The notes under the pieces: generated by a model | Database searches by the model: none | Told to the model about the DNA's origin: nothing | What the model saw: only the letters and a program-made list of their open reading frames with translations | Shown: piece by piece, positions 3,495-38,372 of the stretch | Layout: each line of letters begins with the position of its first letter | Numbering within the stretch: the first letter of the stretch is position 1 | Program-made: the position numbers and the translations under genes | Source: Clostridia bacterium | Lineage (GTDB): Bacteria; Bacillota; Clostridia; RUG12999 | Assembly (NCBI GenBank): GCA_017467445.1 | Contig: JAFTSG010000016.1 | Span: forward strand, 1 to 64,000 | Direction: 5' to 3' | DNA length: 64,000 bases

Positions 3495-5384
3495 ATGACA
3501 AGCGTTGAGGAATATTTATTTCATCAGGGTACGAACTATAAAGCATATGAATTTTTAGGTGTTCACCGCATAGATGGCGGATTTATTTTCCGCGTATGGG
3601 CACCGAACGCCGAAAGGGTAGGCCTTGTTGGCGATTTTAATGGATGGAGCGCAGACGCAACACCGCTTACGCGTCTTAATGCCGGGGGAATATGGGAAGC
3701 TGTGCTTGATATACCCGAAAATTCTTTTTACAAATATGCCGTAACTTCAAACGGAAAAACCATTTTTAAAGCTGACCCGTATGCCGTATATTCCGAAACC
3801 GAAGATAAAACCGCTTCCATTGTATATGACATAAACGGTAAATTTTTATGGGAAGACGAAGCCTGGCAGGGTTTTAAAAAAGGTGCTGACATATTTTCCT
3901 TACCTATTAATATATATGAAGTAAATTTAGGTTCGTGGAAGAAGCGGCCTGACAATACTTATTATTCATACGCGGAAATTGCAAAGCTTCTTATCCCCTA
4001 TATTAAAGAGCACAGCTATACCCACATCGAGCTTATGCCGGTTATGGAATATCCGTATGACGGGTCGTGGGGGTATCAGATTTGCGGATATTTTGCGCCA
4101 AGTTCAAGATTCGGCAGGCCCGAAGAGTTTATGCAGTTTGTGGATTTGATGCATCAAAACGGTATTGGCATTATTCTTGACTGGGTGCCTGCGCATTTCC
4201 CGAAAGATGAGCACGGACTGTATGAGTTTGACGGCAGCTGTTTATACGAATATGCCGACCCGAACAAGCAAGAAAATCCGTCGTGGAATACACGAAAATT
4301 TGATTACGGCAAGCCTGAAGTAATTTCATTTCTTATATCAAACGCCCTTTTCTGGCTTGAAAAATATCATATTGACGGACTTCGTGTAGACGCCGTAAGC
4401 TCGATGCTATACCTTGATTATGACCGCCGTGGCGGACAATGGACACCAAACAAATATGGCGGCAACGGCAATCTTGAGGCTGCCGTCTTTTTGCAAAAGC
4501 TTAATATTGCCGTAAAAAAACACGTCCCGGGCGCTATTATGATTGCCGAGGAATCAACAGCATGGCCTCTTGTTACAAAGCCCACATATGACGGCGGACT
4601 GGGGTTTGATTTCAAATGGAATATGGGCTGGATGAACGATATGCTTGAATATGTTTCGGCAAATCATTTTTTCCGCAAGGATATGCATAAAAACATTACC
4701 TTTTCATTCCATTATGCGTTCAGCGAGAATTTTATACTGCCCATATCGCACGACGAGGTTGTGCACGGCAAAAGGTCTCTCCTTGATAAAATGGCAGGCG
4801 ATTACTCCGAAAAGTTTGCAGGTGTACGTGCGTTTTTGGGGTATATGATGGCACATCCCGGCAAAAAGCTTCTTTTTATGGGAAGTGAATTCGGGCAGTT
4901 TACTGAATGGAATTATGAAAAAGAGCTTGACTGGATGCTTTTTGATTTTGAAATGCACCGGAAGCTTTCCGAATATACAAAAGATTTAAACGCACTTTAT
5001 TTAAGCCTTCCCGAGCTATGGGAAATTGACTTTTCGTGGGAAGGATTTTCGTGGATAGTAAGCGATGACAATATGCAAAATATTGTTGCTTTCAGGCGAA
5101 CCAGTAAAAGTGCGGAGGAAATTATAGCGGTGGTGAATTTTGCACCGGTTGCAAGAGAAAATTACTGTATCGGCGTGCCGCACTATGGCACATATACAGA
5201 AATTTTTAATTCCGACTGTGAAAAATACGGAGGCACTGGAATCTCAAATAAGAAACCTTTAAAAAGCAAAAATATTCCAATGCATGGATACGATTTTTCC
5301 ATTGAAATAAGTGTTCCGCCACTTGCCGCAATTTATTTAAAAATTATTAAGAAAGATGGTTTAAAAAAAGATGCTGACAAATAA
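3495..5384 (+). CDS. glgB: 1,4-alpha-glucan branching enzyme (GH13)
   Basis: GlgB cuts alpha-1,4 chains and rejoins them in alpha-1,6 linkage to branch glycogen. The 629-aa protein has an N-terminal CBM48 module (GDFNGW near residue 47), then the GH13 barrel with catalytic Asp near 299 (GLRVDAV), Glu near 352 (IAEEST) and the [10 protein letters not shown] motif near 418, and a C-terminal beta domain. It is the first gene of the glycogen operon and overlaps glgC by 14 bp. No obvious promoter lies in the 100 bp after the rarA terminator, so the operon promoter is unresolved. Confidence 0.96.
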
Positions 5385-6555
5385 AAAAGATTGTGTTACC
5401 ATGCTTCTTGCCGGTGGTCAGGGCAGCAGACTTTATGTTCTTACAGAAAAGAAAGCCAAACCGGCACTTCCATTCGGCGGTAAATACCGCATTATTGATT
5501 ATGCCCTGTCTAACTGCGTAAATTCCGGACTTGATACCGTGGGTGTGCTGACCCAGTATCAGCCGCTTCTCTTGAATGAGTATATAGGCAACGGACAACC
5601 TTGGGACCTTGACAGACTTTCCGGCGGAGTAAATATACTTCCGCCGTATCAGAAATTTGGTGGCAGCGACTGGTATTCAGGAACGGCAAACGCAGTTTAT
5701 CAGAACATACCTTTTATTGAAAGATACAATCCCGACCACGTACTTATTCTGTCGGGCGACCACATATATAAAATGGATTATTCCAAAATGCTTGCCTATC
5801 ACAAGAAAAAAGATGCCGCATGTTCTATTGCGGTTATTGATGTTCCTCTGCACGAGGCAAGCAGGTTTGGGATAATCAACACAGATGAGGATAATAAAAT
5901 TCTTGAATTTGAAGAAAAACCCGCAAATCCGAAAAGCACAAAAGCATCTATGGGAATTTATATTTTCAAATGGAGCTGTCTTAAAAAATATCTTATGGAA
6001 GACAGTGAAAATCCCAAATCTTCCAACGATTTCGGCAAAGACGTACTGCCACACATCCTCGAATGCGGCGAAAAAATGTATGCCTACTGTTTTGACGGAT
6101 ACTGGAAAGACGTTGGTACAATAGACAGCCTGTGGCAGGCAAATATGGATTTACTTGAAGAAGATATGGTGGGAGGCAGCGAATGGAAAATTTATTCCCG
6201 CAGTATGGAAAAACCGCCTCATTATATAAGCAAAAATGCAGTAGTTAAAAATTCCATTGTAAGTGAGGGATGCGAAATTTACGGTGATGTGGAAAACTGC
6301 GTTCTTTTTCCCAGCGTTACCGTAAAAGAAGGTGCTTGTCTTAGGGATTCAATTGTAATGGCAGATACGGTTATAGGCAAAAATTCCTGCATAAATTATT
6401 CAATTATAGACGAAGAGGTTAATATCGGCGAGGATTGCCGTATCGGAGAAAAAAAATCCTCTTTGGCCGAAATTACAGTTATTGCAGAAGGACTTATCCT
6501 CAAAAACAACTGCATCGTTCCCTCCGGTGCAATGATTGACAGTAATATTAATTAG
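5371..6555 (+). CDS. glgC: Glucose-1-phosphate adenylyltransferase, catalytic subunit
   Basis: GlgC makes ADP-glucose from glucose-1-phosphate and ATP, the committed step of glycogen synthesis. The 394-aa protein shows the nucleotide-binding [10 protein letters not shown] motif (12-21), [25 protein letters not shown] and a C-terminal left-handed beta-helix (repeated V/I hexapeptides). The start inside glgB is preferred because homologues begin with a short MxxKKxCxxMLLAGG leader; an internal ATG 30 bp later would cut into the first strand. Its partner glgD follows after 9 bp. Firmicutes enzymes typically work as GlgC/GlgD heteromers. Confidence 0.96.
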
Positions 6556-6564
6556 GAGGAACAT

Positions 6565-7683
6565 ATGAGTACACTTGGCATTTTATTTTCAGACATTCAT
6601 TCCCGAGGCGTAGCGGAGCTTACGCATCTTCGCACAGTTGCATCCGTTCCTTTCGGCGGAAGATACCGCCTTGTTGATTTTCCCCTTTCGAATATGGTAA
6701 ACTCCGGCATTTATAAAATAGGTGTTATTACAAAAAGCAACTATCACTCGCTTATTGACCATATAAAATCAGGTAAGGACTGGGATTTATCAAGAAAAAA
6801 CGGCGGAGTTGTTTTACTTCCGCCATACGGAATTGCCGCTAGTGCCGGTCCGTACAAAAGCCGACTTGATGCCCTTAAACGTATAAAGAAATTTATTGAA
6901 TCCTCCACTGAAGATTATGTTGTTATGGCGGACTGCGATGTAATTCTTAATATTGATTATAACGAAGTTATAAAGTTTCACGAAGCGTCAGGCGCGGATA
7001 TAACCTGCGTATATAAGGATACCGAAATTGATGCCTCCCGCTCCAGACATTCGACTGTTTATAAAATATCGGACAGTGGCAGAATTTGCGATATTCTTCT
7101 TTCTCCTGAAATCTCGGGGAATTGCAACGTGGCACAAAACTCGTGGGTGATGACGCGCAAAATGCTTCTTTATCTTATATCCGAAGCAAACACGCACGGG
7201 CTTGAGCATTTTGGTAAAGATATTCTTCTTGATAATGTCAATAACATGAAGATAATGGGGTATCAACATAATTCATACTGTGCACATATAGCTTCCCTTT
7301 CCGGTTATGTGAAATACAATATGGATATGATTTGCAAGGAAAAACGTGACGCACTTTTTGCTGTGCCGTCCCGTCCTATTCATACAAAAGTAAGAGACAG
7401 CGCACCTACAAGATATGGCGGCGATGCTACAGTAAAAAACTCTCTTATCGCCGACGGATGTATTATAAACGGATATGTTGAAAACAGCATTTTGTTTGAA
7501 GGCGTAAAAATAGAATCCGGAAGCAGAGTTACCAACTGTATTGTAATGCAAAATACAATTATTGAAAGCTCGTCTTCTCTTTCATGGATTATATGCGACA
7601 AAAACGTTATTATAAAAGCAGGGCGCACGCTTTCGGCAGACAAAAGCTACCCACTCTATATTACCAAAGGAAAGATGATTTAA
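6565..7683 (+). CDS. glgD: Glucose-1-phosphate adenylyltransferase, regulatory-type subunit GlgD
   Basis: GlgD is the GlgC paralogue found in Firmicutes. The 372-aa protein keeps the fold (VASVPFGGRYRLVDFPLSNM, DLSRKNGGVVLLPPYG, C-terminal beta-helix). It lacks the GGxGxRL phosphate-binding loop, replaced by LGILFSDIHSRGVAEL, and the GDH motif reads ADCDVI. That agrees with a non-catalytic partner that raises GlgC activity. A perfect AGGAGG precedes the ATG. It sits between glgC and glgA, with one base before glgA. Confidence 0.94.
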   Translation: MSTLGILFSDIHSRGVAELTHLRTVASVPFGGRYRLVDFPLSNMVNSGIYKIGVITKSNYHSLIDHIKSGKDWDLSRKNGGVVLLPPYGIAASAGPYKSRLDALKRIKKFIESSTEDYVVMADCDVILNIDYNEVIKFHEASGADITCVYKDTEIDASRSRHSTVYKISDSGRICDILLSPEISGNCNVAQNSWVMTRKMLLYLISEANTHGLEHFGKDILLDNVNNMKIMGYQHNSYCAHIASLSGYVKYNMDMICKEKRDALFAVPSRPIHTKVRDSAPTRYGGDATVKNSLIADGCIINGYVENSILFEGVKIESGSRVTNCIVMQNTIIESSSSLSWIICDKNVIIKAGRTLSADKSYPLYITKGKMI

Positions 7684-7684
7684 T

Positions 7685-9109
7685 ATGACGAAGAAAATAC
7701 TTTTTGTTGCAAGCGAAGCCGCACCGTTTGTTGTAACCGGCGGTCTTGGAGATGTTATCGGTGCGCTCCCCGCCGCCATTATGAATAAAAGTGATATGGA
7801 CGTGCGGGTAGTTCTGCCGTTTTATCGGGATATTTCCGAAAATCATATGAGCGAAATTGAATATGTGTGTTACACCTATGTTTCGCTCGGTTGGCGAAAC
7901 CAGTACTCTGGAATTTTTCGCACTAAATATAAAAACGTTACGTTCTATTTTATTGACAACGAATACTATTTCAAACGCGATGGGTGTTACGGACATTTTG
8001 ATGATGGCGAGCGGTTTGCATTTTTTTGTAAATCCGTTCTTGAAATTCTGCCGCTTATAGACTTTTTCCCCGATATAATCCACGCCCATGACTGGCAAAG
8101 CGCTCTTGTGCCCATATATCTGCGGACACTTTTTGGCGATTCTGAAAATTACAGACGTATACGTACGGCATTTACAATTCATAATATTGAATATCAGGGT
8201 AAATACGACCTTTCCATACTTGGCGACGTGTTTTCTCTTTCTGACTATCACGGCGGCATAGTTGAATGGAACGGATGCATCAACCTTATGAAAGGTGCAA
8301 TTGAGGTTTGCGATAAGCTGCTTACCGTAAGTCCTACCTATGCATCGGAAATTTTCAGTCCTTTTTATTCGCATGGCTTATCGCCGATTATAGAGAAAAA
8401 TTCCGGCAAGCTTGGCGGAATTTTAAACGGGATTGATTACGAAACATATAATCCAAAAACCGATATGTCCGTTTTCCGGCAGTTTGATGAAACAACTTTT
8501 GAAAATGGAAAAAGAGAAAATAAGCTGCTACTACAGCACATGTTCGGTCTTACGCAAAATGCCGATATCCCTCTGATTGCCGTTATTTCCCGTCTTGTAA
8601 ACCACAAGGGAATGGATATTCTTGCCGAAGCGGCTGATAGAATTATATCGGGCGGCGCCCAGCTTGCAGTTTTAGGCACAGGCGATTATAATTACGAGGA
8701 TTTCTTTTATAATCTTGCAAGGCGGCATCCTGGGATGGCATATACCGAGCTTAAGTTTAATCCCGATACCGCACGCAAAATGTATGCCGCATCGGACATA
8801 TTTTTAATGCCTTCAAAAAGTGAGCCGTGCGGCCTTGCGCAGATGATTGCATCGCGTTACGGAAGTGTGCCGATTGTGCGCGCGACGGGCGGTCTTTACG
8901 ATTCTATTCACGACTGCTCTCTCGGGCGCGGTAACGGATTTACATTTTCCGGATATGGAAGCGGAGATATTATAGATGCCGTAAACCGCGCGAAAACATT
9001 ATATTACGATAAAGAGAACTGGCGCGCCCTTGTGAAAGAGGTTATGAAAACCGATTTTTCATGGGATAAATCTGCCGGTCATTATATAAATACCTATAAC
9101 AGTATGTAA
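7685..9109 (+). CDS. glgA: Glycogen synthase (ADP-glucose, GT5)
   Basis: GlgA extends alpha-1,4-glucan from ADP-glucose. The 474-aa protein has the GT5 N-terminal domain (HAHDWQSALVP near residue 136, FTIHNIEYQG) and the GT-B C-terminal domain (ISRLVNHKGMD, PSKSEPCGLAQMIASRYGSVPIV with the catalytic-site E). One residue is unusual: the KTGGL nucleotide loop is VTGGL, with V17 where E. coli has K15. It is followed after 19 bp by glgP. Family assignment is secure. Confidence 0.96.
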   Translation: MTKKILFVASEAAPFVVTGGLGDVIGALPAAIMNKSDMDVRVVLPFYRDISENHMSEIEYVCYTYVSLGWRNQYSGIFRTKYKNVTFYFIDNEYYFKRDGCYGHFDDGERFAFFCKSVLEILPLIDFFPDIIHAHDWQSALVPIYLRTLFGDSENYRRIRTAFTIHNIEYQGKYDLSILGDVFSLSDYHGGIVEWNGCINLMKGAIEVCDKLLTVSPTYASEIFSPFYSHGLSPIIEKNSGKLGGILNGIDYETYNPKTDMSVFRQFDETTFENGKRENKLLLQHMFGLTQNADIPLIAVISRLVNHKGMDILAEAADRIISGGAQLAVLGTGDYNYEDFFYNLARRHPGMAYTELKFNPDTARKMYAASDIFLMPSKSEPCGLAQMIASRYGSVPIVRATGGLYDSIHDCSLGRGNGFTFSGYGSGDIIDAVNRAKTLYYDKENWRALVKEVMKTDFSWDKSAGHYINTYNSM

Positions 9110-9128
9110 TCTGAAAAGGAGATTTAAT

Positions 9129-11546
9129 GTGATTGAGTTAAGTAAATCTTATATCAAGCAGCAGCTTGAGGGAAATCTTGCAAGAACGTATGGCATTTCG
9201 CCCGAGGAAGCCACCGAGCGTCATATGTTTAATGCGCTTTGCCAGACCGTAAGGGATATCTTGCGCAGTAAAGAACGCGAATTTTCCGCATCTGTTAAGA
9301 AATCAAAAGGCAAAACCGTATACTATTTCAGTATGGAGTTTCTTGTAGGACCTGCCCTTTTCAACAACCTTTACAATTTGAAAATTGACAAAACCGTAGC
9401 CGACATAATAAGCGAATATGGTATGAAACTGGAAGAGCTTGTAGCACTTGACCCGGACCCCGGACTTGGTAACGGCGGTCTTGGCAGACTTGCCGCGTGT
9501 TTTATGGATTCTCTTGCAACGCTTGGTTATCCCGCGCGCGGATACTGCATACGGTACGATTTCGGACTTTTTAAGCAAAAGCTTATTGATGGATGGCAAA
9601 CCGAACTTCCGGATAACTGGCTTCCGGACGGAGAGCAGTGGCTTATTCCCCGAAATGACGATGCCATGACAGTAAAGTTTGACGGACAAATTGAAGAAAA
9701 ATGGACCGAAAACGGACTTGAGATAGCGCATTATAACTATACTCCCGTAACGGCTGTCCCCTATGATTTTATAATTTCGGGATACGACAGCAATGCGGCA
9801 GTTCCGCTTCGGCTTTGGAAAGCGGTAAGTCCTATTGATTTTGATATGAGTCTTTTTTCACAGGGGCAGTACGCACGTGCTATGGAAAAAAGCGCCGAGG
9901 TTGAGGCAATTTCAAAATTCCTATACCCACCGGATGAGCATTTCGAGGGAAAATCCCTTCGTCTTCGTCAGCAGTATTTTCTTGTATCGGCAGGTCTTCA
10001 GGATATTGTGCGCCGCCATCTTAAAGTATATGGCACGCTTGACAATCTGCACGAAAAAGCCGCAATCCACATAAACGATACGCATCCGGCGCTTGCTGTA
10101 CCGGAGCTTATGAGAATTCTGATTGACGAGCACCACTTTGACTGGGATAAGGCGTGGTATATTGTAAATAAAACCGTTTGTTATACCAACCATACAGTTA
10201 TGGCGGAAGCGCTTGAAACGTGGGATGAGCATCTTATCGAGCGAAGACTTCCCCGTATATATAACATTTTAAAAGAAATAAACGAGCGCTTTACAGCCGA
10301 GCTTTGGAACCGCTATCCCGGTAACTGGAACCTTATCGAAAAAATGAGCATTATGTCACAGCACCGCGTGCGTATGGCAAATCTTTCTATTGTAAGCGGG
10401 CACAGTATAAACGGCGTTGCAAAAATCCATTCCGACATTCTTAAAAATGACGTGTTTAAAGATTTTTACAATATGATGCCTGACAAATTCACCAACGTCA
10501 CCAACGGTATTGCGCACCGTCGGTTTTTATGTCAGGCAAATCCGCATCTTTCAAATCTTATTGCTGAATGTATTGGCGACGGATTTATAAAAGATGCAAG
10601 CGAGCTTTCAAAATTTGCGGAATTTGCAGATGACAACAGCGTTTTAATTCAGCTTGGTGTTATAAAATCTCAAAACAAACGTGTTTTCGCAGATTATATG
10701 TCAACGCAGGGCGTTATCCTTGACCCCGATACAATGTGGAACTCGCATATAAAACGAATTCACGAATATAAACGACAGCTGCTTAATATTTTGCACGTTA
10801 TCAGCCTATATCATCAGCTGCTCGAAAATCCCGATATGGACTTTTTACCGCAAACCTTTATTTTTGCAGGCAAAGCGGCAGGCAGCTACCATATTGCAAA
10901 ACGTATTATCAATCTTATATGGGCTGTCGGCAAGGAAATCGAAAAACATCCCCAGATAAGTGAAAAACTTAAGGTTGTATTTATTGAAAACTACAGCGTA
11001 TCGCTTGCCGAAAAAATAATGCCCGCAACCGAGATAAGCCAGCAGATTTCCCTTGCGGGAAAAGAGGCAAGCGGCACAGGAAATATGAAGCTTATGCTTA
11101 ACGGCGCGGTAACAATAGGTACAATGGACGGCGCAAACGTTGAAATCGCAGAGGCGGTAGGACCGGAAAATATATTCATTTTCGGTATGAACGAACGTGA
11201 GGTTGATTTCCTTTGGAAAAATGGATATACTCCTGCGAATTACTATGTTCAAAACCCCGCACTTAAAAAAGCAGTGGACAGTCTTATCCCCGGATTTTAC
11301 GGCCATTCGTTCAAGGATATTTACGATTATCTTATGACGGGCGAGCGCGGATTTGCCGACCCGTATATGTGTCTTGCGGATTTTGGAAACTATGCAATGG
11401 TATATCACAACATGACCGAAGTGTATAAAAACAAAATCGAGTGGAACCGCCGCTCACTTATAAATATTGCAAATGCGGGCGGATTTGCTGCCGACAGAAG
11501 CGTTAGCGAATATGCGCAGAAAATATGGCGGTTAAAACAGATATGA
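9129..11546 (+). CDS. glgP: Glycogen/maltodextrin phosphorylase (GT35)
   Basis: GlgP releases glucose-1-phosphate from glycogen by phosphorolysis. The 805-aa protein has the usual length. It contains DPGLGNGGLGRLAACFMDS in the N-terminal half and the PLP segment EASGTGNMKLMLNGA with the PLP lysine near residue 653. The start is GTG at 9129, behind AAAAGGAGA. An ATG two bases earlier (9127) is followed at once by TGA in another frame, so it cannot be the start. It is in the same operon as the biosynthetic genes, so synthesis and breakdown are co-transcribed. Confidence 0.96.
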   Translation: MIELSKSYIKQQLEGNLARTYGISPEEATERHMFNALCQTVRDILRSKEREFSASVKKSKGKTVYYFSMEFLVGPALFNNLYNLKIDKTVADIISEYGMKLEELVALDPDPGLGNGGLGRLAACFMDSLATLGYPARGYCIRYDFGLFKQKLIDGWQTELPDNWLPDGEQWLIPRNDDAMTVKFDGQIEEKWTENGLEIAHYNYTPVTAVPYDFIISGYDSNAAVPLRLWKAVSPIDFDMSLFSQGQYARAMEKSAEVEAISKFLYPPDEHFEGKSLRLRQQYFLVSAGLQDIVRRHLKVYGTLDNLHEKAAIHINDTHPALAVPELMRILIDEHHFDWDKAWYIVNKTVCYTNHTVMAEALETWDEHLIERRLPRIYNILKEINERFTAELWNRYPGNWNLIEKMSIMSQHRVRMANLSIVSGHSINGVAKIHSDILKNDVFKDFYNMMPDKFTNVTNGIAHRRFLCQANPHLSNLIAECIGDGFIKDASELSKFAEFADDNSVLIQLGVIKSQNKRVFADYMSTQGVILDPDTMWNSHIKRIHEYKRQLLNILHVISLYHQLLENPDMDFLPQTFIFAGKAAGSYHIAKRIINLIWAVGKEIEKHPQISEKLKVVFIENYSVSLAEKIMPATEISQQISLAGKEASGTGNMKLMLNGAVTIGTMDGANVEIAEAVGPENIFIFGMNEREVDFLWKNGYTPANYYVQNPALKKAVDSLIPGFYGHSFKDIYDYLMTGERGFADPYMCLADFGNYAMVYHNMTEVYKNKIEWNRRSLINIANAGGFAADRSVSEYAQKIWRLKQI

Positions 11547-13300
11547 TGTATGAATTCTATAGATTTCCCGAGGGTGCCGTTAAAAGCGGCACCCCTATTT
11601 CCATATACCTTAAAATAATGCGCCGGGCGGCTCTAAGTCCTTATTTTTGCACAGAAAATGAACGGTTACCGATGAAATGGATTTCCTTTGAAAAAGGGTT
11701 TGACCTATATAAACTCATATTTACCCCCGAAACCGGACTTTATTTCTTTAACTTTAAGACCAACAATACCGAGCTTTCAGGCGGACAGATAACCGTATAT
11801 GACAAAAACTTTAAAACTCCTGACTGGATTTACGGCGGGCTTATTTATCATATAATAGTGGACAGATTTTGCCGAAGTGGCGATACCCCCATACGTGGCG
11901 ACGTTATTTTTCACGAAAACAAGGACGATACTCCTCTTTTTTTGCCCGATGAAAACGGCATTGTAAAAAATAACGATTTTTTCGGAGGCAATTTAAAAGG
12001 TATTGAAGAAAGGCTTGATTACCTTTCCTCACTAGGTGTAACCGCAATATATTTAAGCCCGATTTTTAAAAGCTACTCCAATCACAAATACGATACGGGC
12101 AACTATTTTGAAATAGACCCTATGTTCGGTACGGAAAGTGACCTTGTTTCCCTTTGCAATGAGGCAAAGCGACACGGTATCCGTATAATTTTGGACGGCG
12201 TTTTCAGCCATACAGGTGATGACAGCGTATATTTTAACAAATACGGCAATTATGATTCCGTGGGTGCATATCAAAGCGACTTGTCCCCATACCGCAGTTG
12301 GTATAATATTCGTAGCCGCAACGATTATGACTGTTGGTGGGGAATTTCAACTCTTCCTACGGTAAACAAGAACGATCCGACTTATATTGAATTTATAAGA
12401 AATGTACTTGTCTACTGGCAACAACGTGGGATTTCGTCGTGGCGTCTTGATGTTGCAGACGAGCTTACCGACCCGATGCTTGATAATATCCGCGACGCCG
12501 CCAAAGCGAAAAACCCCGAAAGCATAATTATAGGCGAGGTATGGGAGGATGCATCAAACAAAACCTCCTATGGGAAAAGGAGGCACTATCTTCTTGGAAA
12601 TCAGCTTGATTCCGTTATGAATTATCCCTTACGCGAGGGGATTATAAATTTTGTAAAATACAGCAACGCCGAATCTCTTAAAACCTGCATAGAAACGCTA
12701 ATGACAAACTATCCCCCGCCGGTTATAAACTGCCTTATGAACATTCTCGGCACTCACGATACCGCAAGGATTTTGACTATTTTCGGCACAGACAAAACTT
12801 TCTCATCAAAAACCGAAATGGCGGAATTTTCTTTATCCAAAGAAGAATATTCTCTTGCAGTAAAAAGGCTTAAAGCGGCATCGTTTTTGCAATTCTTTTT
12901 ACCGGGGGTGCCGTCCATATATTATGGCGATGAAGTTGGTATGGAGGGGCTTATTGACCCATTCAATCGAAAGTTTTATCCCTGGGGAAAAGAAAACGAA
13001 GAAATACTTTCTCATTACAAAAAAATAAGTGAATTCCGCAAAAAAACCGAAATTTTTAAAGATGGGCTTTACAAAACCGAATATGCCACAGGCGGTGTTT
13101 TTATTTTTACAAGATACGACGAAAAGGACAATCTTACCTTTGCCACAAACGTGTCGTCTTCTCCCCACTTGCTTTTTACGCGGATTTATGATATGCTTAA
13201 CGGTGAATATACTGATACATTAAATCCGTACGGGTTTGTTATATACAAAACACCGCAAGAGAGGACACTAAATGAACAAAAAGGTTTTAAAATCACTTGA
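11525..13300 (+). CDS. GH13 alpha-glucan hydrolase, neopullulanase/cyclomaltodextrinase-like, cytoplasmic
   Basis: This GH13 enzyme probably trims maltodextrins left by GlgP. The 591-aa protein has an N-terminal beta domain (about 1-105), then the barrel with YHIIVDRF, GVTAIYLSPIF, DGVFSHTG, nucleophile Asp near 309 (WRLDVADEL), acid Glu near 338 (GEVWED) and Asp near 411 (GTHDTAR). No signal peptide is present, so it acts inside the cell. The frame opens 22 bp inside glgP; ATG 11543, forming an ATGA overlap with the glgP stop, is an equally good start. Exact substrate is not decidable from sequence. Confidence 0.88.
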   Translation: MAVKTDMMYEFYRFPEGAVKSGTPISIYLKIMRRAALSPYFCTENERLPMKWISFEKGFDLYKLIFTPETGLYFFNFKTNNTELSGGQITVYDKNFKTPDWIYGGLIYHIIVDRFCRSGDTPIRGDVIFHENKDDTPLFLPDENGIVKNNDFFGGNLKGIEERLDYLSSLGVTAIYLSPIFKSYSNHKYDTGNYFEIDPMFGTESDLVSLCNEAKRHGIRIILDGVFSHTGDDSVYFNKYGNYDSVGAYQSDLSPYRSWYNIRSRNDYDCWWGISTLPTVNKNDPTYIEFIRNVLVYWQQRGISSWRLDVADELTDPMLDNIRDAAKAKNPESIIIGEVWEDASNKTSYGKRRHYLLGNQLDSVMNYPLREGIINFVKYSNAESLKTCIETLMTNYPPPVINCLMNILGTHDTARILTIFGTDKTFSSKTEMAEFSLSKEEYSLAVKRLKAASFLQFFLPGVPSIYYGDEVGMEGLIDPFNRKFYPWGKENEEILSHYKKISEFRKKTEIFKDGLYKTEYATGGVFIFTRYDEKDNLTFATNVSSSPHLLFTRIYDMLNGEYTDTLNPYGFVIYKTPQERTLNEQKGFKIT

Positions 13301-22306: not shown

Positions 22307-24200
22307 TTTTCTTCCCGTTACAAAAGAAGAAATAATTTCACTTGGTTGGGACGCGCCCGATTTTGTATTTGTAACCGGCGACGCATATGTTGACCATCCA
22401 TCCTTTGCGTGTGCTATTTTATCAAGGGTGCTTGAAAGCAAGGGATTTAAAGTGGCAATCCTCCCCCAGCCGTCAGTCAGCAGTGATGCTGATTTTAAGC
22501 GGTTTGGTAAACCCCGTCTTGGGTTTCTTGTATCCGCAGGTAATATAGATTCAATGGTTGCGCACTATACCGCCGCAAAGAAAAAACGCCATGATGACGC
22601 ATATTCCCCCGGCGGCAAGGCAGGGTATCGCCCTGACCGTGCAACTATTTCCTATTGCAACCGCATCCGTCAGGCATACAAGGATGTGCCGATAATTATA
22701 GGCGGAATTGAAGCGTCGCTCCGCAGATTTGCACATTATGATTACTGGGATGATAAGGTACGCCGCAGCGTTTTATTTGACAGCGGCGCCGACCTTTTGA
22801 TATATGGTATGGGCGAGCGAATTCTGACCGAGGTTGCCGTGGCACTGAATAACGGATTTGATATAAAACAACTTACCTATATTGACGGCACGGTTTATAT
22901 TGCCGACAATTTAGACGGGCTTACCGATTACGAACTTTGTCCGTCGTTCAAAGATGTTTCCACATCAAAAACGGCATATGCAAAGTCCGTAAAACTACAA
23001 TATACAGAGCATAATCCCATAAAAGGAAAAACAATTGTGCAGGAGCACGATGGTAAATATATTGTTGCAAACAAACCGGCAATGCCTCTTTCAAGAACAG
23101 AGCTTGACCGTGTGTTTGCACTTAAATTTGAACGAAAATGGCATCCGATGTATGATGATATGGGCGGCATCCCCGCCATTGAAGAAGTGCAGTTTTCCAT
23201 AATCAGTTCAAGAGGCTGTTACGGCGGATGCAATTTCTGTGCCCTTGCATTTCATCAGGGCAGAATGGTGCAATCAAGAAGCCATAAATCCATAATAACG
23301 GAAGCGGAAAAGTTTGTGTGGAACCCCGATTTTAAAGGATATATCCACGATGTAGGCGGGCCGACGGCAAATTTCCGAGACCCTGCTTGCGACCATCAGC
23401 TTGAGCACGGTGTGTGCACAAGCAAACAGTGTATGGCACCGAAGCTTTGTCCTAATATGAAGGTTTCGCACAGCGATTATCTTGACCTCTTACGAAAACT
23501 CCGTAAAATAAAAGGTGTAAAAAAGGTGTTTATCCGTTCAGGACTTCGGTTTGATTATATAATGGCGGATAAAAATGATGAGTTTTTTAACGAGCTTTGC
23601 GAGCATCACATAAGCGGTCAGCTTAAGGTTGCGCCGGAACACGTCTGCGATGAGGTTCTTCGTTTGATGGGGAAACCAAAAAACGATGTTTACAATGCGT
23701 TTAAAGATAAGTTTTATAAAATAAATGAAAAGATAGGCAAAAAACAGTATCTTGTCCCCTATCTTATGTCAAGCCATCCGGGAAGCACCCTCCGCAGTGC
23801 AATAAAGCTTGCACTGTATCTTAAAAAAGAGGGACTTAATCCACAGCAGGTACAGGATTTTTATCCCACACCGGGTACAATTTCAACCTGTATGTACTAC
23901 ACCGGACTTGACCCAATGACAATGAAAAAAGTCTACGTTGCAAAATCTCCGGAAGAAAAGCGGATGCAGCGTGCACTTTTACAATATAAAAAACCCGAAA
24001 ATGCCGCGCTTGTACGAAAGGCTCTTGTTCAGGCAGGACGCGAGGATTTAATCGGGTACGGGAAAGAATGTTTAATTCGTCCCGAAAGGAAAGGAGTTTC
24101 TAGTAATGTCAACACAAATAATAAACGGCAAGGAAGTTTCAGCAAGAATAAAAGGGGAGCTCAAAAATCAGGTGGCAGAGCTAAAGGAAAAAGGCATTAA
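22296..24200 (+). CDS. YgiQ-family radical SAM protein
   Basis: The 634-aa protein belongs to the large YgiQ radical SAM family, whose reaction is unknown. It has the N-terminal [23 protein letters not shown] block, the [4Fe-4S] motif [12 protein letters not shown] (CxxxCxxC near residue 307), VGGPTANF and the [17 protein letters not shown] block. The C-terminal tail of about 30 residues is rich in Lys, Arg, Asn and Gly and is encoded in the 95 bp shared with folD. It starts inside the ftsK end, so it is translationally coupled. Confidence 0.92.
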
Positions 24201-24957: not shown

Positions 24958-24973
24958 TATACTTTAAAAAGGT

Positions 24974-25006
24974 AAAGCACCGTTTTAACGGTGCTTTGTT
25001 TTTTTA
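24974..25006 (+). terminator. folD terminator
   Basis: AAAGCACCG/CGGTGCTTT stem with a TTAA loop, followed by a T-rich run that extends into the end of convergent nadE. Confidence 0.85.
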
Positions 25007-26857
25007 TTCTAATTCCGATAAAAAGAGTTCTGCTGCTGCATCGGACGGCATTTTAAAATCTGTTCTCGGCGAGAGCGAAATCTCTCCTACTTTCGGGCCG
25101 TCGGGCACACATGAACGTTTGAACTGCTGAGTGAAAAATCTTCTGTAAAAGGTTTTAAGCCATTTAAGAATTGTTTCCGCTTCATACTCTCCGTCAAATG
25201 CATCTGCCGCGAGTCTGTATATTTTTTTTGGTTCAAAAGAGTATTTTACCGCATAGTAAATAAAGAAATCGTGCAGCTCGTACGGACCTACAATATCTTC
25301 GGTTTTCTGCGCAATATCGCCTTCCTCCGGTGGAAGAAGTTCGGGACTTACAGGTGTATCAAGAATGTCAAGCATCACTTCCTTAAGCTCACCGCTTGAT
25401 ACGTCTGCAACATATTTTACAATATAGCGCACAAGTGTTTTCGGTACACCGCTGTTTACTCCGTACATTGACATATGGTCGCCGTTGTAGGTTGCCCATC
25501 CGAGTGCAAGCTCCGACATATCGCCCGTGCCTATTACAATGCCATTTTCCATATTGGCAATATCCATAAGCACTTGTGTGCGTTCTCTTGCCTGTGCATT
25601 TTCATACACCGCATTATGATTGTTTATATCGTGGCCGATGTCCTCTATATGCTTTGTTACAGAATCGGAGATATCTACACATTTAAGGGTAACACCAAGT
25701 GCCTCGCAAAGCTTTTCAGCGTTGCCTTTTGTTCTTTCAGTAGTGCCAAAACACGGCATTGTTACCGCAATTATATTCTTTTTATCCCAACCAAGATTGT
25801 AAAACGCACGTACGCAGACAATAAGTGCAAGTGTGGAATCAAGTCCGCCCGAAATGCCAATAACAGCGGTTTTGCTGTATGAACGGGATAGGCGTTTTTC
25901 AAGACCTGCCGCCTGAATTTTAAGAATTTCCTCGCACTTGCCGAGTTCCGGAACAAACGGATATTTACTATATTTTCTTGTAAGCGGTGTGTCGGAAAGT
26001 TCCATTTCAAAAATGCTTACTGCATATTCGCCTGTACTTTCCGGATAATATGCTTTTTTTCTTTCGCCGCCAAGCATTTTTACGTCAATATCGGTTATTG
26101 CTTCCGTTTTTTCAAATGGTACATTTTCCGCTAGAACTGCGCCGTTTTCTGCTATTATACTGTGACCTGCATAAACCGCATCGGTTGTTGATTCGCCGTC
26201 TCCCGCATTTGAATACATATATCCGCTAATAAGCTTACTGCTTGTCATTTTTATCATATTTCTTCTTATATCTGCCCTGCCGATAGTTTCGGTCTGAGAC
26301 GCAGAATTAAGAATAATGTTTGCACCCTCTGCCGCGTGGACTTCCGCAAGAGAATATATACCAAAATCATTTCCCGTTACTGCCGCAAATGAGAATTCGG
26401 GAAGCTCGGCGCATTTAAACAGAATATCTGTGCCGAACAGGGTGGACTTACCAAATATATCAATTTCAAATGTTTCTTCCGGTGCAGATGCAAAATATCT
26501 GTTTGCATTTGCTGACGGCACTATACCAAGAATTTTTCCTTTATAGACAACCGCGCTGCAGTTGTAGAGTTTTCCCTCAAATGCAAACGGAAGTCCTACC
26601 GCAAAAACAATATTTGCACGTCTTGTTCCTTCGGCAATATCCAAAAGTGCTTCTTTTGCTCCGGAAATCAGTTTTTCCTGAAAAAACAAATCCCCGCAGG
26701 TAGCTCCTGTTATGCAAAGCTCCGGCAAAAGCGCAAGTCGCACTCCTGCTTGTGCCGCTTCTTTTACAAGAGATATTATTTCTTTTGCATTTGATTTGCA
26801 GTCTGCAAGCCTTATTTCAGGGGTAAGGCACGCACATTTGATAAATCCGTGTTTCAT
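25004..26857 (-). CDS. nadE: NAD(+) synthetase, glutamine-type architecture with degenerate glutaminase domain
   Basis: NadE amidates nicotinic acid adenine dinucleotide to NAD using ATP. The 617-aa protein has the two-domain plan: a nitrilase-like glutaminase (about 1-290) and a synthetase with the PP-loop SGGLDS (336-341) and GTGDMSELALGW. Of the Glu-Lys-Cys glutaminase triad, E46 (LPELCIT) is kept. The Lys of the usual GIVPK is S115 (GIVPSANANRYF), and the usual ICEDLW cysteine segment reads VTGNDFG (160-166), without Cys. The synthetase may therefore use free ammonia, or another subunit supplies it. AAGGAGACTTATTT precedes the ATG. It is the last gene of the polC transcription unit. Confidence 0.93.
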   Translation of the reverse strand: MKHGFIKCACLTPEIRLADCKSNAKEIISLVKEAAQAGVRLALLPELCITGATCGDLFFQEKLISGAKEALLDIAEGTRRANIVFAVGLPFAFEGKLYNCSAVVYKGKILGIVPSANANRYFASAPEETFEIDIFGKSTLFGTDILFKCAELPEFSFAAVTGNDFGIYSLAEVHAAEGANIILNSASQTETIGRADIRRNMIKMTSSKLISGYMYSNAGDGESTTDAVYAGHSIIAENGAVLAENVPFEKTEAITDIDVKMLGGERKKAYYPESTGEYAVSIFEMELSDTPLTRKYSKYPFVPELGKCEEILKIQAAGLEKRLSRSYSKTAVIGISGGLDSTLALIVCVRAFYNLGWDKKNIIAVTMPCFGTTERTKGNAEKLCEALGVTLKCVDISDSVTKHIEDIGHDINNHNAVYENAQARERTQVLMDIANMENGIVIGTGDMSELALGWATYNGDHMSMYGVNSGVPKTLVRYIVKYVADVSSGELKEVMLDILDTPVSPELLPPEEGDIAQKTEDIVGPYELHDFFIYYAVKYSFEPKKIYRLAADAFDGEYEAETILKWLKTFYRRFFTQQFKRSCVPDGPKVGEISLSPRTDFKMPSDAAAELFLSELE

Positions 26858-37232: not shown

Positions 37233-37262
37233 AAAGCACAGTTTTTATCAACTGTGCTTTTT
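37233..37262. terminator. Bidirectional terminator, PHP gene and PPTase-GNAT gene
   Basis: AAAGCACAG/CTGTGCTTT stem with A-run on one side and T-run on the other. It overlaps the 3' end of the leftward gene. Confidence 0.8.
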
Positions 37263-38372
37263 ATATACTTCTTTATATAATGTATGTTTTATTTCTTCAA
37301 ATTCCTGTTTTGTTATCGGCGCCCCCGATGTCATAATCATAAGCGGAACTTCTTTTTTGCCTTTTGAGATGGGTGGCTGAATGTACGGATGTTCATTTAA
37401 ATAAAAGCCGTTTCGCTCATAAAAGTTTATTCTTCTTTTTGCCATATCGATTTCGGAAGGTTCTACTTCAAGGCAGATTTTTTTGTTATACATTTCTTTA
37501 AGTGCGGCAAGTATTTTACTGCCAAGCCCTTCGTTTCTGTATTCGGGACTTACCGCAAAATGTTCTATATATACAAAGCATTCAAATTCCCATACTGCTA
37601 TAAAAGCTTTGACTTCTTTTTCTTTTACACAGTACACCTTATAAACCGGATTTTCAAACAGTTTCTTCTGTTCTTCTTTGGATCTTCGTTCGTCCGTCGG
37701 AAAGCTTTTTCCCATAATTTCAAACATTTTGCCAAAATCAGCTATATCCATTTCGGTTAATTCCACTATTGTTTCATATCCGTCCGCCGCAGTTTCGCCG
37801 CATACGGCAAGCTTATAGCCAGCCAAATCAAAAACGGATAAATACATCTGTTTACCGCCTATATCAATGGTTTTTCTGATGCCTTTCTTATCGGCACATT
37901 CTATTTCAGCAGGCGCCAATTTAAAGCCTGTGCCCATCGCTTTTGCTACGGCTTCTTTTAGTGTCCAAAGCTTAAAAAATGCATCTGTCTTCTCCTCTTC
38001 CGCAGATAAAAATTCCGTTTCTGCGTTAGAAAGCGTCCGTTCCAAAACTTTTTCATTTACATCTTTTATCTGCTCGATATCAATGCCGCCTTCGCCCACC
38101 ATAACCGCAACATATTTCCCGCTGTGCGATATGGAAAACGGCGCGCCTCCGGGGATGTACGGTTTTCCTTTTTTATCGTACAAAAAGCCTTTGTCTGTCA
38201 TATCAGGATGCACTTTTTTAAGCAGGATTTCGGCATAAAGGCATCTAATTTTATCTTCAATTTTCAAAAATCTTTCGGCTTTTTTCCTCCGCTCTTCCGA
38301 TGCAAGAGAAAGAAGAGTCTTTACCCCTTCTTCCGTAAAAAAACCGCTTATATCGCTTATATAAATCTTCAT
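37248..38372 (-). CDS. 4'-phosphopantetheinyl transferase fused to GNAT acetyltransferase
   Basis: The 374-aa product joins two domains. Residues about 1-200 are an Sfp-like phosphopantetheinyl transferase with FSISHSGKYVAV, GIDIEQIKD (metal-binding Asp) and FFKLWTLKEAVAKAMG. This class loads phosphopantetheine on acyl or peptidyl carrier proteins. Residues about 205-345 form a GNAT acetyltransferase with HFAVSPEYRNEGLGSKILAAL (acetyl-CoA loop) and FYERNGFYL. There is no stop or frame break between them. No carrier-protein, NRPS or PKS gene is in the window. The ribosome site is weak (GCAGGTAG). Confidence 0.87.
   Translation of the reverse strand: MKIYISDISGFFTEEGVKTLLSLASEERRKKAERFLKIEDKIRCLYAEILLKKVHPDMTDKGFLYDKKGKPYIPGGAPFSISHSGKYVAVMVGEGGIDIEQIKDVNEKVLERTLSNAETEFLSAEEEKTDAFFKLWTLKEAVAKAMGTGFKLAPAEIECADKKGIRKTIDIGGKQMYLSVFDLAGYKLAVCGETAADGYETIVELTEMDIADFGKMFEIMGKSFPTDERRSKEEQKKLFENPVYKVYCVKEKEVKAFIAVWEFECFVYIEHFAVSPEYRNEGLGSKILAALKEMYNKKICLEVEPSEIDMAKRRINFYERNGFYLNEHPYIQPPISKGKKEVPLMIMTSGAPITKQEFEEIKHTLYKEVYKKHS

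Follow-up and report, generated by a model that had tools for sequence, protein, structure and literature searches.

In annotation rules, as in the standard classification of De Ingeniis et al., every fused NAD synthetase is treated as glutamine-using (PMC3376133). The closest described system to the enzyme considered here is the octameric glutamine-dependent NAD+ synthetase of the Mycobacterium tuberculosis (Mtb) type (NF002730/PRK02628; PDB 3dla, 3sez, 6ofc), whose glutaminase has a C-E-K catalytic triad and a YRE loop with a second Glu. This loop contacts glutamine, gates the bottleneck of the ammonia tunnel together with Tyr58, controls the passage of ammonia, and signals to the synthetase, while its second Glu orients the catalytic Lys; Tyr58 of Mtb NadE forms constriction 1 of the tunnel (PMC6946656). 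Intact NAD synthetases accept ammonia, and the human enzyme has a Km for NH3 of 42 mM (PMC6946656). Free ammonia is also used by the type N single-domain NadE of B. subtilis and Salmonella, and by human CPS1, where an ancestral glutaminase has Ser for Cys (PMC4655335). A laboratory-made C176A mutant of Mtb NadE (3sdb, 3sez, 3seq, 3szg) retains its fold without the nucleophile. In the searchable literature we found no description of a natural glutaminase-dead NAD synthetase.

The window, that is the whole stretch of 64,000 nucleotides analyzed, comes from a gut bacterium whose metagenome-assembled genome (MAG) is 61% complete, and it encodes a fused NadE of this kind. Its features are as follows, in window coordinates.

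25004..26857, minus strand: nadE, a two-domain NAD+ synthase of 617 aa; intact frame, ATG with AGGAG upstream
25988..26857, minus strand: N-terminal nitrilase-fold (glutaminase-like) domain, residues ~1-290, without Cys, Lys, or YRE loop
25004..25960, minus strand: C-terminal NAD synthetase domain, residues ~300-617, active-site columns kept; PF02540, 104.6 bits
26720..26722, minus strand: Glu46 codon, sole retained member of the C-E-K triad (alignment)
26702..26704, minus strand: Ala52 codon, at the position of Mtb NadE Tyr58 (alignment)
26513..26515, minus strand: Ser115 codon, replacing the catalytic Lys (alignment)
26495..26512, minus strand: YRE-loop remnant, residues 116-121 (ANANRY), 8 residues shorter than in active relatives
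26372..26374, minus strand: Gly162 codon, replacing the catalytic Cys (alignment)
25835..25858, minus strand: PP-loop GISGGLDS, synthetase residues 334-341, kept in live and dead members
24965..25006, no strand assigned: hairpin between the convergent folD and nadE genes, likely a shared terminator; fold -20.1 kcal/mol

The neighboring folD, which has a ribosome-binding site, starts within the final 95 bases of a YgiQ-family radical SAM gene (window 24106-24200), and these two genes overlap out of frame.

Judged by homology, the product is by descent a glutamine-dependent NAD synthetase of the Mtb type. It scores 734.2 bits against NF002730 (NAD+ synthase, Mtb type; cut-off 473) across residues 2-617, and PF00795 (50.8 bits, residues 9-263) is followed by PF02540, the order expected for the octameric glutamine-dependent type and possessed by the Mtb enzyme; this two-domain, fused-branch architecture distinguishes it from type N. 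The nearest solved structures are those of Mtb NadE, with which it is homologous over its full length at 34-36% identity and shares the synthetase residues together with the last tunnel Asp and the tunnel Lys (D460, K589). An AlphaFold2 model of the monomer, built from 37 relatives, gave a mean pLDDT of 88 (93-98 for most of the nitrilase domain) and superposed on Mtb NadE with a TM of 0.90-0.93, the C176A mutant structures being among the best matches.

Alignment of 260 distinct relatives places Glu46 at the nitrilase Glu (E52 in Mtb), Ser115 at the catalytic Lys column, which is K in 213/214 Cys-bearing relatives, and Gly162 at the catalytic Cys column. In the model, Gly162 comes directly after strand 156-161, at the nucleophile-elbow position. 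The distance from the Lys to a conserved Arg, which includes the YRE loop, is exactly 12 residues in 213/214 Cys-bearing relatives; here it is 4 residues, and the second Glu of the loop is absent. Ala52 occupies the column of Mtb Tyr58, which is Y in 210 of the 213 Cys-bearing but only 14 of the 46 Cys-less relatives. The synthetase active site is present, both in SGGLDS and at its other conserved columns, and the PP-loop is nearly invariant among relatives. The sequence-only reading had recognized the domain plan of a glutamine-dependent NadE with Ser115 at the catalytic Lys, no catalytic Cys in VTGNDFG, Glu46 alone left of the triad, a shortened loop in between, and an intact PP-loop, and it had called for an alignment with characterized enzymes. 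With the relatives and Mtb NadE aligned, each of these points holds, and the shortened loop proves to be the YRE loop. Relative to Mtb NadE the protein thus carries Cys176 to Gly, Lys121 to Ser, and Tyr58 to Ala replacements and a deletion of the YRE loop, leaving no visible route to glutamine hydrolysis. It resembles the C176A mutant in the fold retained by its model; that mutant, however, has one change, whereas the window protein is natural and has lost the Lys and the loop as well. With triad and loop absent, it very probably does not belong to the glutamine-dependent type in the function that defines this type.

We therefore regard it as highly likely that the NAD+ synthetase encoded by nadE is no longer a glutaminase and uses free ammonia to amidate deamido-NAD. 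The synthetase domain, whose active-site residues are in place, should adenylate NaAD and take NH3 as usual; nadD is present in the genome, so the NaAD substrate is made. The nitrilase domain is predicted to fold but should be unable to hydrolyze glutamine: it lacks the nucleophile and the catalytic Lys, and also the YRE loop, which positions this Lys and gates the tunnel in active enzymes. If NAD is nevertheless made, free ammonia is the simplest donor, and the predicted chemistry is that of type N. CPS1 offers a parallel, in that a fused ancestral glutaminase domain has had its catalytic Cys replaced (Ser294 in CPS1) and ammonia is used, as predicted here. Without the YRE loop and Tyr58, the mouth of the old tunnel is probably wider, which would permit entry of ambient ammonia, and the nitrilase domain is probably retained for assembly or stability of the octameric enzyme. 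This agrees with the earlier proposal of a dead glutaminase kept as structure, with free ammonia as one of two suggested nitrogen sources; triad and YRE loop are lost and the synthetase is conserved.

Of the 14 dead-type genomes of at least 94% completeness, 12 have no NAD synthetase besides the dead form, which must therefore make NAD there; one of the 12 (G246) is a single contig. The two exceptions, G364 and G407, each possess a second small NadE. A second copy is also found in three ungraded dead-type genomes, G062, G072, and G073 (those of L005, L045, and L050). Two of these are Rikenellaceae-type, and in this pair the frame that holds the second NadE is 542-543 aa long, as in the other fused type. 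A search for a second nadE, also suggested by the earlier reading, found none in the window's own genome (61% complete) or in that of its congener; the only other PF02540 match in the former, C2:68791, was rejected as MnmA.

Ammonia might alternatively be supplied in trans by a separate glutaminase partner, as in the two-subunit (type C/R) NAD synthetases (PMC3376133), and some dead-type genomes do have another NadE or other nitrilase-family genes. Among the 12 near-complete dead-type genomes, nitrilase-family proteins other than NadE were detected in G019 and G389, with one sub-threshold match in G345. However, none was found in the remaining 9/12 or in the window's own genome (61% complete), and the fused dead domain would already fill the docking site of such a partner. 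We consider this explanation improbable. Of the two donors entertained by the sequence-only reading, then, free ammonia is favored over an external glutaminase because no partner nitrilase was found in the genome at hand (61% complete) or in nine of the twelve others.

Selection on the domain was assessed using a congener MAG (L003/L082), 90% identical, in which the Lys and Cys places read VPSA and VTGED. Between the two, the nitrilase domain exhibits a dN of 0.08 and a dS of 0.57-0.72 (dN/dS ~0.11-0.15), and the synthetase domain a dN of 0.04 and a dS of 0.62-0.68 (dN/dS ~0.06-0.07); both domains are under purifying selection. Nitrilase identity for this pair is 0.858 at a synthetase identity of 0.934, where the median of active (live) pairs is 0.866, so that no relaxation of the nitrilase domain beyond that of active enzymes is apparent for the pair. 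Constraint within the genus as strong as that upon active domains would suit a nitrilase domain which now acts as a glutamine sensor or regulatory module, binding its ligand without cutting it. Against this, the Lys is gone together with the YRE loop that contacts glutamine, the pocket columns decay without acquiring any new shared pattern, and older dead-type pairs do show relaxed nitrilase domains; a sensor role is in our opinion unlikely. Still less credible is a glutaminase kept active by another nucleophile. The domain has Cys residues at positions 8, 10, 20, 48, 54, 100, and 149, but Cys48, Cys54, and Cys149 are common in active relatives too and were rejected as compensatory, no Cys stands at the nucleophile elbow, and the Lys and the loop have been lost as well. 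Although the source is an incomplete MAG, a decaying pseudogene or assembly error is already refuted by the full open frame with its ribosome-binding site and terminator, by the failure to find another NAD synthetase in the same 61% complete genome, and by the identical changes in an independent congener MAG and dN/dS values of ~0.06-0.15, the last two of which exclude a sequencing accident or noise.

The favored reading, an ammonia-fed enzyme with a dead glutaminase domain, probably applies to more than this genus. Forty-six of the 260 relatives lack the catalytic Cys (34 have Gly in this column, 4 Ser, and the rest other residues or a gap), and 44 of these lie outside the window's genus; the loss is consequently not unique to the window. 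In an even draw from the window's class, 19/190 NadE proteins (~10%) were Cys-less. Named members include Clostridia, Erysipelotrichia, Bacteroidales (Alistipes), and a Treponema, and almost every relative with a named source, whether of dead or live type, is a gut MAG. Five sequences were left out or treated as doubtful: L094 is interrupted, L168 is misaligned at the Cys column, and L056, L071, and L169 have a gap there. The first of these is a Cys-less nadE (EIGED) with an in-frame stop, in a genome (G056) that is 97% complete and has no other clear NadE match. In another relative, L106 (G048), the Cys is kept and the adjoining Glu (E177 of Mtb) is replaced by Arg (EVCRDLW), possibly another route to glutaminase loss.

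The number of events was estimated from unrooted trees of the synthetase domain only. With FastTree (260 rows) the Cys trait needs 28 changes, 14 of them forced by supported branches; with IQ-TREE (101 rows) it needs 25, 11 of them forced, and 24-26 over bootstraps. A single origin is permitted by 0% of 200 bootstrap trees and was rejected. The catalytic Cys defines the nitrilase superfamily. For this reason the changes are read as losses, the unrooted trees themselves giving no direction. These trees indicate that the Cys was lost separately at least about a dozen times in related bacteria, the loss in the window being one of many in parallel. In this the enzymes differ from CPS1, which belongs to an unrelated glutaminase class and represents one animal lineage.

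Decay of the active site follows a pattern. Changes to the YRE loop or its Glu occur in 35/46 Cys-less members and in 0/213 clear Cys-bearing ones (Fisher 5e-34, the rows not being independent), and phylogenetically independent pairs gave 7-8 concordant and 0 opposed cases (median p 0.008). In Cys-less members conservation drops most steeply at the Cys and the aromatic residue that follows it, at the YRE loop, and at Tyr58, as well as at other nitrilase-domain and pocket positions and at one Arg of the C-terminal loop; the synthetase core columns are still 90-100% conserved among the 46. The catalytic Lys is retained in 39/46, which places the window NadE among the most degraded cases. This distribution suggests that the nucleophile goes first, the YRE loop next, and the Lys and Glu last.

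A Km such as the 42 mM of the human enzyme implies that the dead form would need either a better Km or high ammonia. Within the class, the ammonium transporter family AmtB (PF00909) was found in 1/19 dead-type versus 96/137 live-type genomes (Fisher 5e-8), and among genomes of up to 2.4 Mb in 1/16 versus 34/57 (p 1e-4); phylogenetically independent pairs gave 5 to 0.2 (p ~0.06). The sole dead-type genome with AmtB, G364, is one of those with a second NadE. As a correlation, this pattern fits lineages living always in high ammonia. Most losses of named source come from animal-gut anaerobes, to which ammonia is plentiful, and this may be the ecological cause. We tentatively put forward, at somewhat less than even odds, a general scheme in which the fused NAD synthetases of high-ammonia anaerobes repeatedly become ammonia-fed, losing the nucleophile and then the YRE gate so that the tunnel turns into an open inlet, with loss of AmtB as a sign of permanently high ammonia.

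About 10% of the fused enzymes from one class are thus very probably not glutamine-using, and most of these are the sole NAD synthetase of their genome. They amount to a repeated experiment of nature on the roles of the nitrilase domain beyond cutting glutamine and on the gating of the ammonia tunnel, as well as test cases for the effect of nitrogen supply on cofactor synthesis in gut anaerobes. NAD synthesis in dead-type bacteria is predicted to be unaffected by glutamine analogues.

Elsewhere in the window, the region 3495-13300 holds a glycogen cluster (glgB-glgC-glgD-glgA-phosphorylase-amylase) followed by mutS2. An open reading frame at 37248-38372 (minus strand) resembles a 4′-phosphopantetheinyl transferase over residues ~63-153 and a RimI-type acetyltransferase over residues ~214-323, an apparently unusual fusion.
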